Part shown: piece after piece, positions 1 to 5,370 of the stretch
Layout of the letters: every line of letters begins with the position of its first letter
Numbering within the stretch: the stretch's first letter is position 1
NCBI GenBank assembly: GCA_027295975.1
Contig: JAPUJX010000197.1
Span: forward strand, 1 to 5,370
Length of the DNA stretch: 5,370 nucleotides
Direction: 5' to 3'
Source of the DNA: Gammaproteobacteria bacterium
Lineage (GTDB): Bacteria > Pseudomonadota > Gammaproteobacteria > Pseudomonadales > Azotimanducaceae
Notes under the pieces: model-generated
The model's database searches: none
What the model was told of the DNA's origin: nothing
What the model saw: only the letters and a program-made list of their open reading frames with translations
Program-made: the position numbers and the translations under genes

Positions 1-2301
1 TTTCGCACGGAGATTCGCCTGGCGCAGGCCCCAACACCGCCGCTGACTCTCGACAAACGAACGGAATCATGGAATCCCGCTGCAATTCTTCCAGGTCAAT
101 TTGACTTGAGGTTGTCAGGCAGAATAGACGGCAGCTGTCGGATAACATGTCAGGCAACGTTGAGTCACCTCAACGACACCAGATCTCTACAATTCGTGCA
201 AACCTATGATCTTTCGTCGCACGTTCGCACCGGGACTTTTTCACCGACGTTCGAAGCACTTCCCGAATGGATCGGCATAGATCGAATCGAAATCGACTTT
301 CAAATGTCCGTCAAAATCGATTATTCCGGCGCCGTGCGGGAACAGCTTTTTCAGCAGGCGATCGAGTATCAGACGCCCCAGGTGCAAAACATTCTGTGCA
401 TCGATATCGGGTCGAGTTCGGTGGCGGCTTCGCTCATCGAGAAAAACGGCGTCATTACCGGGCTGAAACTCGGGGCACAGCTGGCGGAAATAGACAGCCA
501 GCACGATGAAGCACCAAGTGAGGAAATCATCGCCAGCAATGTCGGCATCGGTTTGGAGTGTTTCTGGCCGTTCAAGCACAACCCGCTGGGATTTGCTGTC
601 ACCAATATCATCGACGGACCAGACGAATCACTGCTGTTGGATGAACTGGGGCGACATCGATTGACCTCGGTGCCCTTTGCGCCAGCTCAACAGATCCATA
701 AATTTGTCGACAACGTGATATTCGATCCCAAGCGGCGACTGGTCAACCCAACCGACGAGCACGGCTCCTACGCAGAACTCACAAAAGACATGCTTGCTGA
801 ACTCGCCCACCACTATCTGTTACCTGCATTACACAAAAAGGGTGTGTTGAACGACGGTCTCGACGTAGTCCTTACCCACCCCAACAGGTTTTCCAGCGTG
901 CAGAAGCGAATTTACGCGAACGCCGCGGGTTCGCTACTGGCAACCCTGGGCATCGCCGAACAGCCGATCAAACTGGTACCTGAATCGGATGCGGCAGCCG
1001 TCAGTTCGCTGGGCCGCCCACAGGTCCTGAGACCACAGGACAAATATGCCCTCGCCTTCGATTTCGGCGGCGGTACCCTCGATCTCAGTTTCATGTCCCT
1101 TGACGTCGACGCCAACGGCGCCTTCATTCGATCGTCGGTCACCCGGCGTCTGGGTGCCGCCGTCGGAGGCGGGGTGCTCGACATTCTGCTCCATCTGCTC
1201 GTGCACTGGCACCTCAATCAGATGCAGGATCTGGGATTCGGCGAGTACACGCAAAAGATAGTCGAGCCTGACCCTCGAGCAAATACCGCGACCCGCAAGG
1301 AAACCATAGTTGGTTTTCAACGGGATCTTGCGACGGCCAAGGCTGACCTGGAAGTTCGCTGCCGGAAGAGCTGCCAGGCGTCGACGGATGCCTCTTATGC
1401 CTGGTCGTTCGGCGAGCCATTGAAGATTCGTATCGGCGTCCAGCAGTCACTCGGTTTATTCGAACCAACCGAATTCGGGGTCGGTAAACTGAGCATTTCC
1501 CCCGGCGTGGAACTGGTAGCCGAACATGCTGCGGCCACCGACGCCTCCGGTCCGAGGGAACTCAATTATTATCTGCAACTCGACAGATTTGTCGTTGATG
1601 CCGGGCCCATCCGAAGTTTCGTCGATTTTGCGACCCGGGAACTCACCGCCATGTGTTGTGATGACAAGCCTTTCGTCATTTCGGTCACCGGGCGTGCATC
1701 GTTGTTTCCATTAATTTACGAATCCCTCGACCACTTCGCCCGGAATCGTTCGGGTTGTCGGTTATTGGATCGAGAACCCATGTCCGGCGAAGCCATGAAA
1801 ACCGCCGTTGTCGCGGGTGCCGCGCAACTCATGTTTCAGGCGCACGCCGAAGCAGACCACGGCCTCAATCTGGCTATGCTGTTCCGCGACTCCTACGGTT
1901 CCACCAGCACCAGCCGCCTCATCCACGAACGCGACTGGCACTCGGTTGCGGTGGGCCCCGATGCTCAATTTCAGATTGCCGCGGTACCCTCGAACGCAGA
2001 CGTGGAAATGTGTAACGCCCTGTGGGGCCAGTACATGATTCTTCCGTTGACGCCGCGTCGCCGCCTGGGAGAAGTCGTCAGCCAGGAGGCCCTGCTTGCC
2101 GGGGAGATTTCCCTGAGAAGGCACAACGATGCCCAGGGTAACGCATCAATGGTGGTCATTGGAGAGAGAAGCATCCGTCTGGATGGCGCGGCGCCTTCGG
2201 AAATCGATTCATTACACCCCTCCGGTTTTCTCACCGGCAAGATTACCGCCAGTGAAGCGTTCCAACGGCTGGCTGCTCTCCCATTTGCGCCCGATGTATG
2301 A
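1..2301 (+). CDS. Divergent Hsp70-like (actin-fold) ATPase, 5'-truncated by window edge
   Basis: The frame is open from base 1 to TGA 2299-2301 (766 visible residues). The first start-like codon (TTG 106) has no Shine-Dalgarno site and coding sequence continues upstream, so the real start is outside the window. Visible residues 1-130 look beta-rich and match nothing I know. Residues about 131-620 form an Hsp70 nucleotide-binding domain: phosphate-1 loop DIGSSS (135-140); an FDPKRRL segment (241-247) like the Hsp70 IKRLIGR region; THPNRF plus a Q-R helix (292 on) like VPAYFNDxQR; connect-1 PESDAAA (327-333, E328 at the catalytic Glu position); phosphate-2 DFGGGTLD (354-361) with the conserved Thr; GGGVLD (389-394) like LGGEDFD; an AK helix (446-447); adenosine motif VTGRASLFP (562-570); connect-2 VVAGAA (603-608). 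Only about 150 residues follow, with no clear substrate-binding domain. It is probably cytoplasmic and ATP-hydrolysing; substrate and partners are unknown. A relative of SrfB-type actin-fold proteins is possible but unproven. The ATPase call is firm; the role is not. Confidence 0.88.
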   Translation, partial: FRTEIRLAQAPTPPLTLDKRTESWNPAAILPGQFDLRLSGRIDGSCRITCQATLSHLNDTRSLQFVQTYDLSSHVRTGTFSPTFEALPEWIGIDRIEIDFQMSVKIDYSGAVREQLFQQAIEYQTPQVQNILCIDIGSSSVAASLIEKNGVITGLKLGAQLAEIDSQHDEAPSEEIIASNVGIGLECFWPFKHNPLGFAVTNIIDGPDESLLLDELGRHRLTSVPFAPAQQIHKFVDNVIFDPKRRLVNPTDEHGSYAELTKDMLAELAHHYLLPALHKKGVLNDGLDVVLTHPNRFSSVQKRIYANAAGSLLATLGIAEQPIKLVPESDAAAVSSLGRPQVLRPQDKYALAFDFGGGTLDLSFMSLDVDANGAFIRSSVTRRLGAAVGGGVLDILLHLLVHWHLNQMQDLGFGEYTQKIVEPDPRANTATRKETIVGFQRDLATAKADLEVRCRKSCQASTDASYAWSFGEPLKIRIGVQQSLGLFEPTEFGVGKLSISPGVELVAEHAAATDASGPRELNYYLQLDRFVVDAGPIRSFVDFATRELTAMCCDDKPFVISVTGRASLFPLIYESLDHFARNRSGCRLLDREPMSGEAMKTAVVAGAAQLMFQAHAEADHGLNLAMLFRDSYGSTSTSRLIHERDWHSVAVGPDAQFQIAAVPSNADVEMCNALWGQYMILPLTPRRRLGEVVSQEALLAGEISLRRHNDAQGNASMVVIGERSIRLDGAAPSEIDSLHPSGFLTGKITASEAFQRLAALPFAPDV
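2298..2301 (+). promoter_or_regulatory. ATGA stop/start overlap coupling genes 1 and 2
   Basis: The TGA of the ATPase gene and the ATG of the next gene share four bases. No purine-rich ribosome binding site is seen in the 20 bases before the ATG, so translation of gene 2 probably depends on ribosomes finishing gene 1 and restarting. Confidence 0.8.
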
Positions 2302-3026
2302 ACTGGTTGAGCCTGGAATCATTCGCCATCACCATCGCCATTTGCCTGGCCGCGGGCGCGGGATATTTCCTCGGCTCGATCAGACACAAGGGAAAAACAC
2401 GAGATACACCCCGTGGCGATCCGGAAACGATGCCACCGACGGCCGTTCCCCGCTACCTGGACTGTCGCCAGTTGGCGATGATGGGCGCGGGGCTGTTGAC
2501 CGAGTTCACCCGATCACCCCCTGACGAGTTGCTGATGCCGCTGACGGTGTCAACCGAAACCTGCAGGCAGTTGCAGCGGTTCCTCGTGCAACTGCCCACC
2601 GAACCGCAAACCCGGGGACAGGCGTGGCTGGAGGTTTTTGTGCGGGACTGGGTACAGGAAATTTTGCGCGCCACACCCTTTCTGGCCGCTTATGGCCCAC
2701 CCACGGAGACCTGGGGAGCGGTCAAGCTGAGCGTATTCAGTATCGATCTGTGCATCCGCGCGGATCTTGCCGAAATCGGCCGGACGGTGGATTCGCCCGT
2801 TTTGCTCGAACCAGCCAACCCCGGGTGTAAGACCCGTGGGACCGATTGGCGCGACATACATGAGGTGGCGCCTGTGCGCGAGGTGGTCGCACAACGGTTG
2901 AAACAGACGGACAACCCGGGAGAAATGGTCATCGACGTGATCAGCACCGGCATTATCGACTCCAGCGGCGTTGGCGCCGCGAGCATACTCGCAACCTACA
3001 ATCCGGCCGAGTGGAGGCGTATGTGA
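2298..3026 (+). CDS. Membrane-anchored protein of unknown family with STAS-like C-terminal motif
   Basis: This 242-residue protein begins at the ATG of an ATGA overlap with the ATPase gene. Residues 9-28 are one hydrophobic, Ala/Gly-rich membrane segment, followed at once by a basic stretch (R29, H30, K31, K33, R35, R39). By the positive-inside rule the N-terminus is outside and the remaining 200 residues are in the cytoplasm, where they could meet the ATPase. The Cys at residue 16 is preceded by Ile, so this is not a lipobox. The linker (30-55) is Pro-rich and polar. A mixed helical region follows, including an amphipathic helix with W110 at about 107-125. Near the C-terminus, VIDV (211-214) leads into IDSSGVG (220-226), closely resembling the core strand and helix cap of STAS domains (SpoIIAA family). 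Only 16 residues follow that motif, too few for a whole STAS fold. I do not recognise the family. A tethering or adaptor role for the ATPase is inference. Confidence 0.85.
   Translation: MNWLSLESFAITIAICLAAGAGYFLGSIRHKGKTRDTPRGDPETMPPTAVPRYLDCRQLAMMGAGLLTEFTRSPPDELLMPLTVSTETCRQLQRFLVQLPTEPQTRGQAWLEVFVRDWVQEILRATPFLAAYGPPTETWGAVKLSVFSIDLCIRADLAEIGRTVDSPVLLEPANPGCKTRGTDWRDIHEVAPVREVVAQRLKQTDNPGEMVIDVISTGIIDSSGVGAASILATYNPAEWRRM
3013..3026 (+). promoter_or_regulatory. Shine-Dalgarno GGAGG and GTGA overlap setting the start of gene 3
   Basis: GGAGG at 3013-3017 lies five bases before GTG 3023, whose GTGA shares four bases with the TGA of gene 2 (3024-3026). This makes GTG 3023 the likely start, rather than the in-frame GTG at 3011, which lies next to the purine box and has no site of its own. 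It is the only junction in the window with a strong ribosome binding site, so gene 3 may be translated partly independently of gene 2. Confidence 0.8.
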
Positions 3027-4534
3027 GCAAAATAGGCTCTCCGGTAGGTCCCATGAGCCCGGCCGAGATCGGCAGGCTGCTTTGTCTGGCAACCGAAACT
3101 GCCGTTGATGTCGGTTACATCGACGAAGACAGATATTTATGGTCAGGCAACGCCTCGCCGCTGCAACTACCGGAATTCGCCCGGAAACTACTGGATAGAT
3201 ACCGGCCGGAAGAAAACCATCAACTCGCCAGCGGGCCACAACTCAAACAACTACTCGAAGACAATTATTCCGTACAACTCGAATACCGCGATGATAGATT
3301 TCAATATCGCGCCGTACCTTTCCCGCATATCGCTTTACGCTACCGACAGTCGTTCGGTTCGAGCCTGACGGCAAATCTGGAACGGAAAATTCAGCGCAGT
3401 TACAGCGACTACCTTCAACAAAATCAGTCCGTTCGATCTTATAAAGACGAGAGTGCAAGCCCCAGCGTCATTACCACCTATATCGGTGCCGGGGTGTTCA
3501 ATCCGCCGATTGACGAGGCATGTATCGCGAATGTAGAAGTCAGGATCGACGGCAAGTCATACGAACCAAAAATTCGTGGCACCAATACCCCGGCCGGTTG
3601 GTACCCGGGACAGCAAGGTCTGGCGTTTTCCAGCAGCTACAGACATACCCTGGCAGTCATCGAGAGCAGCCCCCTGCCTTTTGGACATATAGTGTTCATC
3701 GGCTCGGTCGTGGATCGTCCCGGAGACAACCTCTGGACATACGACTGTCTCCGCCGGGAGGTAAGTTACCGGACATTACGTTTTGACGAACCCCGGAACA
3801 TTGACGTTGGCGGCGTCGACCTCTCGGTCTGCATACGAAGCGAACCTCTCATCGGTGCCCTCAGCCGCCGGACATCGGAGACTCTCGCCCTCGAACTCGT
3901 GGGCCTGTATTTCCCCGACTCGCTTCTCGAAGGACGATCTCACCTGGTGCAAATCTGCCTCACCCGATCGGGAGAGCTTGCAACTCAGCCCATAGACGAC
4001 ACTTTTTACTGGCTGACTCTGAGCGGTGATGCCATCGAATTAATCGACGCCGCCACCCTGGGCTCGCGTCCCATGACAAAACCGGATCCGGGGCAATCGG
4101 TGGAATTCGAAAATCCAGCCAAGCTGACCGTACGGCGGGCTTCGGTTGGTGGACAGGTCGGTCTTATCGTCTCGCCGCGTACCAACTTCGGTTACCTGCA
4201 GATTGCCACCGAATCGCCCGAAACGTTCACCCCCCACTTCCCCTGGCTGAAGACATGCGGCAGGGTCACCACCCGGCGAAACTGGCTACCCGGCCTGGTT
4301 ACCCGGGAAATCGGGGAAAATCTACGCGGGACGCAAATTTCCATGACCCGAAACGCCCGCGAATTTACCTTCTGTCAACATGCCGGTGCGAGAAAAAGTT
4401 TCATCCAGAAACAGGGCCGCTGGCAAGGCATAGAAAACGGCGTCGACATCGACCTGGCGCCGGGCGACTCCCTGCTGCTCGGGCCCATGTGGCTGCGTGC
4501 CGTGCAAAACGATCAAGCCAACTTTCGCCGATGA
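3023..4534 (+). CDS. Soluble protein of unknown family, mostly beta-rich
   Basis: With the GTG start at 3023 the product has 503 residues; the GTG at 3011 would add four. No signal peptide or membrane segment is visible, so it should be cytoplasmic. Roughly the first 90 residues look helical and charged. Residues from about 140 onward alternate short hydrophobic strands with Gly, Pro and Asn turns, as in several successive beta-sandwich domains; conspicuous points are the Trp/Gly/Pro-rich AGWYPGQQG turn and a TFYWLTLSG strand. The last 26 residues include LAPGDSLLLGP (478-488) followed by a WLRA strand, which resembles the closing strands of FHA or similar beta-sandwich folds, but the FHA core motifs (G-R, S-x-x-H, N-G) are not evident. 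No catalytic motif was found. Its position between two membrane-anchored proteins and behind an Hsp70-like ATPase suggests a structural or adaptor partner; this is inference. I do not recognise the family. Confidence 0.87.
   Translation: MSKIGSPVGPMSPAEIGRLLCLATETAVDVGYIDEDRYLWSGNASPLQLPEFARKLLDRYRPEENHQLASGPQLKQLLEDNYSVQLEYRDDRFQYRAVPFPHIALRYRQSFGSSLTANLERKIQRSYSDYLQQNQSVRSYKDESASPSVITTYIGAGVFNPPIDEACIANVEVRIDGKSYEPKIRGTNTPAGWYPGQQGLAFSSSYRHTLAVIESSPLPFGHIVFIGSVVDRPGDNLWTYDCLRREVSYRTLRFDEPRNIDVGGVDLSVCIRSEPLIGALSRRTSETLALELVGLYFPDSLLEGRSHLVQICLTRSGELATQPIDDTFYWLTLSGDAIELIDAATLGSRPMTKPDPGQSVEFENPAKLTVRRASVGGQVGLIVSPRTNFGYLQIATESPETFTPHFPWLKTCGRVTTRRNWLPGLVTREIGENLRGTQISMTRNAREFTFCQHAGARKSFIQKQGRWQGIENGVDIDLAPGDSLLLGPMWLRAVQNDQANFRR
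4531..4534 (+). promoter_or_regulatory. ATGA stop/start overlap coupling genes 3 and 4
   Basis: The TGA of gene 3 overlaps the ATG of gene 4 by four bases. The preceding bases (CCAACTTTCGCCG) contain no Shine-Dalgarno-like run, so expression of gene 4 probably relies on translational coupling. Confidence 0.78.
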
Positions 4535-5370
4535 TCCTGACGGGGATGGTCACCTCCCTGCGCGTGGGCATCTTGCTGACCGTTGCTCTTTGCGGCTACT
4601 GGTCATGGCAGTTCCTCAACCTGGCCCTGGTCGAAAACCAGCATTGGATCGAGCAGTTGGATCAATCGAAAATCGTGTCTATTGAGAAAGCCCTGTTCGA
4701 GCGGGCTCGAGCGGCAGATCTCATCCGCTTCGATTCCGCGACAGGCAACATCAGTTACCCATCCGGCGACCTCGCTTTGCAGCAGGCGCTGACGTTGGAC
4801 GCCGACACGTGGCCGGACGCCAGAAAAAATAAATTGTTGCTGGCGTCTTTACACACGACCGCCAGCGGTCGTCGGATCCGCGCCGCCATACGAAACTGGA
4901 ACGCCCAGGGAGGCATGATTGCGTTGAGGGACGATCGTGAGGTCATGGGCCGGCAAAACGACGATGACTCCCGCCTGTCCGATGGCGTCAGTATCACCGG
5001 GGATCGTCCTTCGAACTGGCGGGTTGATCTCACCAACATCGATCGGCTGGTCGACTACATCGTCAGTCCGAACGCGCCCGCACCTCGACAATTCGGACGG
5101 TTATCCCGTCATTCCCGGTCGGCGGCAACCACACTTCACTTCGCAGACTGGCTGACCCTCAGGGTAGCCTCGAGAGAAACCCTGACACTCAATACCGAGA
5201 TACCCATTAGCAATCCCCGAAACCTGTACATCGACCTGGTCGGCAAGCTGGTATCGATCAGGGTCGGCAAACGTACCTGGTCATTTTCACAGATACCCCC
5301 AAGCTGCAACACAACCGCGGCAATCTGTTTCCGGCTCGCACCGGGAGCCATAAAAACAACCCCGGGGCAA
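4531..5370 (+). CDS. Single-anchor membrane protein of unknown family, 3'-truncated by window edge
   Basis: From ATG 4531 the frame stays open for 280 codons to the last base, with no stop, so the gene continues outside. An alternative ATG at 4546 has a G-run directly against it with no spacer, so 4531, inside the ATGA overlap, is preferred. Residues about 12-33 form a hydrophobic membrane segment rich in Leu, Val, Gly and Trp. One Arg (R11) precedes it, and E35 and other acidic residues follow, so the weak charge bias favours N-terminus in and the rest in the periplasm. C21 is preceded by Val-Ala-Leu, not a lipobox. Residues about 40-125 look helical (for example a KALFERARAADLIRF helix), about 125-185 are polar and Asp/Arg-rich, and about 190-265 are beta-rich with repeated short hydrophobic strands (LTLRVAS, LYIDLVGKLVSIRVG). 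No enzymatic motif is visible in this part; a catalytic domain could lie downstream. Family not recognised. Confidence 0.85.
   Translation, partial: MILTGMVTSLRVGILLTVALCGYWSWQFLNLALVENQHWIEQLDQSKIVSIEKALFERARAADLIRFDSATGNISYPSGDLALQQALTLDADTWPDARKNKLLLASLHTTASGRRIRAAIRNWNAQGGMIALRDDREVMGRQNDDDSRLSDGVSITGDRPSNWRVDLTNIDRLVDYIVSPNAPAPRQFGRLSRHSRSAATTLHFADWLTLRVASRETLTLNTEIPISNPRNLYIDLVGKLVSIRVGKRTWSFSQIPPSCNTTAAICFRLAPGAIKTTPGQ

Follow-up and report, generated by a model that had tools for sequence, protein, structure and literature searches.

Four overlapping genes fill the contig

The window is the whole stretch of DNA analyzed here, 5370 bp, and corresponds to the entire contig C109 (JAPUJX010000197.1) of a gammaproteobacterial draft genome (680 contigs, 77% complete). 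Four open reading frames (ORFs) on the forward strand, g1 to g4, fill the window, and the first of them encodes an Hsp70-like ATPase. A collinear locus (L088, genes A to E) in a genome of another class suggests that the window belongs to a larger operon for cell wall synthesis by a SEDS protein and a class B penicillin-binding protein (bPBP). The features of the window are as follows.

1-2301, forward strand: g1, Hsp70-like ATPase, 766 amino acids visible, N-terminus lost at the contig end; homologue B in L088
373-1839, forward strand: nucleotide-binding domain of g1 (residues 125-613)
2298-2301, forward strand: g1/g2 overlap, ATGA, seen in the sequence
2298-3026, forward strand: g2, 242 amino acids, or 239 from TTG 2307
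3013-3017, forward strand: GGAGG, Shine-Dalgarno-like sequence ahead of g3, seen in the sequence
3023-3026, forward strand: g2/g3 overlap, GTGA, seen in the sequence
3023-4534, forward strand: g3, 503 amino acids from GTG 3023; homologue C in L088
4531-4534, forward strand: g3/g4 overlap, ATGA, seen in the sequence; the C/D counterpart in L088 overlaps by GTGA
4531-5370, forward strand: g4, first 280 amino acids of an anchored protein, cut by the contig end; homologue D in L088

An earlier reading made from the letters of the window (the sequence-only reading) had described four overlapping frames led by an ATPase gene, and this layout was borne out, as the ORFs are open throughout and overlap by ATGA, GTGA and ATGA. 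Its statement that the operon consists of four genes with no noncoding base holds within the contig and partly reflects truncation at both contig ends. Since g1 and g4 run off opposite ends, the operon is longer and four genes are a minimum. The further statement that every junction is a 4-base overlap depends on the start of g2, which is uncertain: the three overlaps are present, but the database copy of g2 (P0003, 239 amino acids) starts at codon 4, TTG 2307, which leaves a 5-base gap and no g1/g2 overlap. Among the four genes, a clear Shine-Dalgarno-like sequence could be observed only at g3. The products of the four genes may be made in fixed proportions. The two single-pass membrane proteins of the sequence-only reading were found again in g2 and g4, both with a single hydrophobic segment at the N-terminus; g3 has none and g1 touches the threshold once, within its core domain.

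Composition and codon usage of g1-g4 match the rest of the bin. The GC content of the window is 57.3%, compared to 57.1% for the bin, and its tetranucleotide distance of 0.15 lies within the range of 0.07-0.21 across 20 contigs. Codon fit is 0.07-0.15 for g1-g4, compared to a mean of 0.113 (standard deviation 0.035) for 62 long ORFs from sampled contigs, and -0.04 to 0.03 for the six undivided frames of the whole window. No long overlap was found between the contig ends and other contigs of the genome, an Rfam search of the window gave no match, and promoter and terminator matches were about as frequent in the window as in shuffled sequence. Repeats in the window are limited to short two-copy ones. 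A 16S rRNA gene was not found in the genome.

g1 belongs to the Hsp70 branch

In g1, five motifs of the Hsp70/actin superfamily could be identified in order, which we take to be phosphate-1 (397-438), connect-1 (973-1014), phosphate-2 (1045-1095), adenosine (1672-1728) and connect-2 (1801-1839). In 20000 shuffled sequences the phosphate-2 pattern occurred 0 times and the phosphate-1 pattern 47 times, both patterns having been written after g1 was inspected. In Pfam, at an expectation value (E) of up to 1, HSP70 (PF00012) was the only family matched (E 0.14, 10.8 bits, cut-off 20.6). The HscA model of NCBIfam matched residues 288-398 with E 0.0011, far below its cut-off. A comparison of g1 with a profile of 17 Hsp70-like proteins by hhalign gave 98.1% over residues 286-397, and a global hhalign alignment placed the start of the Hsp70 domain at residue 125. 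Neither MreB (PF06723) nor FtsA (PF14450) was matched in g1 by Pfam at E up to 1. When g1 and B were used as a pair, hhalign gave 98.0% to the Hsp70-like set, 90.0% to SrfB and 85.2% to MreB, the last over 39 columns only; the SrfB and MreB matches cover the generic ATPase core. The ATPase named in the sequence-only reading thus stands on the five motifs, the HscA match and the profile comparison, and g1 is assigned by its sequence to the Hsp70 superfamily, in the Hsp70 branch of the ASKHA fold.

The last 153 residues of g1, which follow the nucleotide-binding domain, match no Pfam family, and therefore no Hsp70 substrate-binding domain was recognized. With this and with scores under the family cut-off, g1 does not classify as a DnaK/HscA chaperone. 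A YceD match to the N-terminal piece of g1 (E 0.062), far under its cut-off, was taken as chance. Structure models predicted from single sequences were unusable for both g1 (predicted local distance difference test score, pLDDT, 37) and g3 (mean pLDDT 30).

A collinear locus in a different class

A search with g3 in 398 genomes of the phylum, its own included, returned itself, genome G809 (E 5.4e-8) and genome G756 (E 0.004). The match in G756 was judged to be chance, as none of g1, g2 and g4 has a match at that locus. G809 belongs to a different class of the same phylum and is rated 100% complete. There, the g3 match sits in an open frame of similar size (497 amino acids), in a row of genes on one strand that encode proteins of 789 (A), 1179 (B), 496 (C), 885 (D) and 1011 (E) amino acids. 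A/B, C/D and D/E overlap by 4 bases, and B and C are separated by 122 bases.

When g1-g4 were compared with A-E by blastp, only like pairs matched: g1-B (2e-8), g3-C (2e-10) and g4-D (3e-13), while the best other pair had an E of 0.09. In shuffling tests the scores of these three pairs were reached 0 times in 300 each, compared to at least 8 of 300 for the other 21 of 24 pairs, which include a 612-amino acid protein encoded upstream. Identity is 27-32% over the aligned parts. Between g1 and B, similarity is found only in the nucleotide-binding domain (g1 residues 132-610), and B also has five Hsp70 motifs in order and no Pfam match to the MreB or FtsA families at E up to 0.1. The similarity of g3 to C is strongest over g3 residues 98-228, and g4 residues 2-246 align to D residues 5-246. 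By sequence comparison, homology and gene order are thus shown from this one independent locus. That the four families recur together holds for g1, g3 and g4, which are collinear with B, C and D, and not for g2, which has no counterpart in L088.

Two further proteins are encoded in L088. A (L088:2987-5356) has no membrane segments and no Pfam match and overlaps B by 4 bases. The 612-amino acid protein (L088:367-2205) has one N-terminal hydrophobic segment and no Pfam match. Both may also belong to the system, as components that are missing from the window contig.

D and E resemble a synthase pair

D consists of a membrane anchor, followed by an unannotated part that matches g4 and by a penicillin-binding transpeptidase domain (PF00905, E 3.1e-13, over the cut-off). 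Active-site motifs could be identified in this domain at residues 545 (SxxK), 635 (SxN) and 822 (KTG). The best NCBIfam model for D is PBP2/MrdA (7.4e-18), compared to 0.0072 for the FtsI model, and the nearest solved chain is SpoVD (6.4e-5).

E directly follows D with a 4-base overlap and has 15 hydrophobic segments in a simple scan. At full length it matches PF01098 (FTSW_RODA_SPOVE) with E 1.4e-5 and 24.7 bits, the cut-off being 26.4, and its last 696 residues match with E 1.5e-6 and 27.9 bits, which is over the cut-off. The RodA model gave 1.4e-6. From these matches, E is classed as a RodA/FtsW-type membrane protein of the SEDS family. About 350 residues ahead of its main membrane part (L088:13156-14100) resemble an FHA-type beta domain by eye and have no Pfam support.

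SEDS proteins and bPBPs form the standard synthase pair that polymerizes and cross-links peptidoglycan. An anchored transpeptidase with SxxK, SxN and KTG motifs and an adjacent SEDS gene are both found in L088, in the form of D and E, whereas the window contig ends before this part. The visible part of g4 has the topology of a bPBP, with a short N-terminus, one segment and then a large domain, and g4 is predicted to run on into a penicillin-binding transpeptidase past the contig end.

g2 and g3 have no recognized family

No Pfam or NCBIfam family matched g2, g3 or g4, and PHROGs at E up to 0.1 gave two families of unknown function for g1-g4 and nothing else. This agrees with the claim of the sequence-only reading that no product other than the ATPase resembles a family that can be named; the homologue of g4, D, carries PF00905 past the part that matches g4. 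The soluble part of g2 is predicted to be cytoplasmic from the basic residues that follow its N-terminal hydrophobic segment. On present sequence comparison, g2 lies outside the shared core of the two loci. By eye, g3 has what we take to be a GYF-like start and an FHA-like end, for which Pfam gives no support. A borderline similarity was observed between g3 residues 357-452 (window 4092-4377) and g4 residues 152-254 (4984-5292), possibly a common beta domain, and its score was reached in 10 and 12 of 4000 shuffles. It was set aside because one of 67 other ORFs scores equally high against g3.

Distribution of relatives

When 5.8 billion protein sequences were searched with g1, g2 and g3, the queries alone were returned, for g1 and g3 among the best ∼8000 candidates. 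Genome searches with g1, its own genome counted, gave matches in 4 of 274 genomes of the class (E 0.001), 6 of 398 of the phylum (E 0.01) and 11 of 100 of the family (E 0.01). Beside g1 itself, these matches were mostly to the phosphate-2 region of Hsp70-like proteins, plus stray matches. A search with g3 in the order found only its own genome among 194, and a search with g4 in the class found 3 of 340 genomes, its own and two with E of 0.006 and 0.009. The latter two were judged to be chance matches, with no neighbor resembling g1-g3.

Scans of the genome_contigs collection with g1 and g3, and of the viral_contigs collection with g1, g3, g4 and two pair alignments (A2 and A3), gave no relative. 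Among plasmids, tblastn with g1 gave four Hsp70-family records only, and with g2, g3, g4 and the L088 proteins B, C, D and E none; among phages, g1 gave none. B was missed by the phylum search with g1, even though this search covered G809 and blastp aligns g1 and B at 2e-8. Therefore, the negative searches are weak evidence of absence and no measure of spread.

In another genome of the class (L042:4142-9737), two adjacent Hsp70-like genes (656 and 946 amino acids) were observed behind a gene for a 210-amino acid protein. In this protein, a charged, repetitive stretch accompanies a hydrophobic segment, and phmmer gave no match to g2.

Comparison with known systems

The D-E pair, a PBP2-like transpeptidase gene followed by a RodA-like SEDS gene, resembles the elongasome (RodA-PBP2, MreB, MreC, MreD, RodZ), which also includes an ASKHA-fold ATPase (PMC8078798, PMC7793260). 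In contrast to the elongasome, the ATPase here is of the Hsp70 branch rather than MreB and is encoded in the same operon, two or more large proteins (g3/C, A, g2) belong to no known family, large extra domains are present in D and E, and MreB and MreC are encoded separately in the genome of the window. The divisome (FtsW-FtsI, FtsA, FtsQLBN) likewise combines a SEDS-bPBP pair with a cytoplasmic ATPase of the actin superfamily, as described in PMC8078798; however, g1 and B have no FtsA family match and D is nearer to the PBP2 model than to FtsI. That paper also states that divisome and elongasome both connect to an actin-like ATPase and that their regulators are otherwise unrelated. Direct contact of MreB with RodA-PBP2 is the topic of a 2026 paper (PMC13327600). 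In the actinobacterial pknA-pknB cluster (RodA, PbpA, FHA proteins, kinases), RodA, a class B PBP and cytoplasmic regulators share one operon, according to PMC3989709, but no kinase or FHA family match was found here and an Hsp70-like ATPase is present instead.

Compared with DnaK/HscA, g1 has the nucleotide-binding domain with its phosphate-2 and connect-1 region and differs in an extra region before this domain, in the lack of a recognized substrate-binding domain and in the lack of a co-chaperone family in the operon. SrfABC operons, too, encode a protein of the Hsp70 superfamily with a long region at its N-terminus. However, the SrfB family is absent from g1, B and the genome of the window, and no SrfC family was found in A-E of L088. 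The SrfB profile PF07520 was over the cut-off in 6 of 274 genomes of the class, the genome of the window not among them, and the SrfC family PF10139 gave nothing in g1-g4, though SrfC of a locus in the class is recognized. When g1 was compared with six SrfB proteins by hhalign, they aligned at phosphate-1 only (19.7%), and in the 19 remaining comparisons between g1-g4 and SrfA-SrfE no value exceeded 2.1%, the same as for shuffled sequences. The match to SrfABC that the sequence-only reading had named as a refutation of its own proposal is thus not supported: by its sequence, g1 shares a superfamily with SrfB and is not a SrfABC member. Two SrfABC loci of the class (L018:2225-12456 and L017:8186-16902) extend past SrfC and also encode an exported vWA-like protein (PF00092 9.4e-5, slightly below the cut-off) and a protein in which a Pro-rich stretch and a membrane segment occur, which suggests that the SrfABC loci of the class are a five-gene set.

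A predicted Hsp70-type switch for wall synthesis

As g1, g3 and g4 are collinear homologues of B, C and D, D carries a transpeptidase domain and E is SEDS-like, the window is read as part of a SEDS-bPBP operon. It is likely the middle of such an operon, with the Hsp70-like ATPase as the predicted switch (probability about 0.6). In the genome of the window, g4 would continue into the transpeptidase and be followed by a SEDS gene. The proposal of the sequence-only reading, in which a nucleotide-switching ATPase forms part of a machine at the membrane and not of a general chaperone operon, agrees with these findings. Its label of unknown function is narrowed by L088, where the g4 family leads into a transpeptidase followed by a SEDS-type protein.

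Several observations weigh against this interpretation. A single independent locus stands behind it, in which B and C are separated by the 122-base gap instead of an overlap and none of the six proteins compared is a counterpart of g2. The flanks of the g1-B similarity failed against shuffles, 147 and 259 of 500 of which reached the score. As 15 of the 17 proteins in the Hsp70-like profile come from loci found by the matches of g1 itself, the profile shows the Hsp70 branch and is not independent. E at full length is just under the PF01098 cut-off, its last 696 residues have no matching chain among solved structures at E up to 1, and the scores of E with the RodA model and of D with the PBP2 model are far under the equivalog cut-offs. 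In the genome of the window, no convincing match to D or E was found in the 42 loci covered (248,984 bases of ∼3.7 Mb).

Hsp70 is in the same fold superfamily as the actin-like FtsA and MreB, and g1 is from its Hsp70 branch. In the proposed mechanism, the cytoplasmic Hsp70-like protein would bind and hydrolyze ATP and thereby hold the complex differently from the cytoplasmic side, where it could contact g3, the g2 soluble domain, the bPBP at its short N-terminus and the SEDS loops. This change would turn local polymerization and cross-linking on or off, or position them, and g3/C and the g2 soluble domain would act as adaptors. In such a scheme g1 would have a regulatory role, the counterpart of that of actin-like FtsA for FtsWI and of MreB for RodA-PBP2. 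MreB (PF06723 4e-142) and a fragment of MreC on contig C558 are encoded in the genome as well, and the module is therefore considered additional and not a replacement; it probably serves a specialized wall structure or condition. There may be an even chance that it represents a third wiring, a SEDS-bPBP complex with an Hsp70-branch switch and its own adaptors (g3, g2 or A), present beside MreB/MreC and with a patchy distribution in no fewer than two classes of the phylum.

The main rival, which we consider unlikely, assigns the Hsp70-like protein a dedicated chaperone role: it would fold, insert or recycle the unusual bPBP and SEDS proteins and not regulate their activity. The operon context and the Hsp70-branch nucleotide-binding domain of g1 would agree with this rival, and a substrate-binding domain could be too diverged to be recognized. 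Against it stand the 153 residues past the nucleotide-binding domain, which have no Pfam family, and the lack of co-chaperone genes already remarked on from the sequence, as Pfam finds no DnaJ or GrpE family in g1-g4 or in A-E of L088. That the genes form an envelope-associated conflict, defense or secretion island, which uses wall-modifying enzymes and is not a growth machine, is improbable. The patchy occurrence, the low sequence conservation and weak PADLOC matches of B (0.0063) and C (0.0089) over 42-56 residues would agree with it, but g1-g4 gave no PADLOC match at E up to 1, D and E gave none at 0.1, B-E gave no PHROGs match at 0.01, and a bPBP with a SEDS protein is the usual synthase pair.

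A diverged SrfABC-type operon, in which a SrfB-like ATPase is followed by other membrane proteins, is very improbable. SrfB likewise has a long region ahead of its Hsp70-like domain, g1 and B together reach 90.0% to SrfB over the shared ATPase core, and the SrfABC loci of the class also carry a membrane-segment protein and a vWA protein. The Hsp70-like set nevertheless outscores SrfB (98.0 versus 90.0), PF07520 misses both g1 and the genome, g1 alone aligns with SrfB at phosphate-1 only, the remaining 19 comparisons are at the level of shuffles, and bPBP and SEDS genes occupy the place of SrfC in L088. Least credible is that the contig is misbinned foreign DNA or a decaying remnant with little bearing on a working system. 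Such an origin would be compatible with the fragmented, incomplete draft and with g1 not being seen in the two sampled genomes of the same genus; yet the contig fits the bin in GC content, tetranucleotides and codon usage, its four frames are uninterrupted from end to end, and the genome with the collinear homologue is rated 100% complete. The reading as a SEDS-bPBP operon with an Hsp70-type switch is preferred.

In the open-access literature no description was found of an Hsp70-like ATPase combined with a SEDS-bPBP pair, a scope that is no proof that none is in print. The papers that came up for such a combination deal with Spiroplasma actins, an Antarctic Pseudomonas and the Bacillus cell cycle, and the one that came up for surveys of SEDS/bPBP neighborhoods deals with Clostridioides difficile. 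The window illustrates that a penicillin-binding protein cut at a contig end can pass for a protein without any family. If the reading is true, a SEDS-bPBP operon around an Hsp70-like ATPase would separate generic control, by a nucleotide-driven cytoplasmic clamp, from filament-dependent control of wall synthesis, and it would point to an unrecognized wall-building structure or condition in these bacteria.

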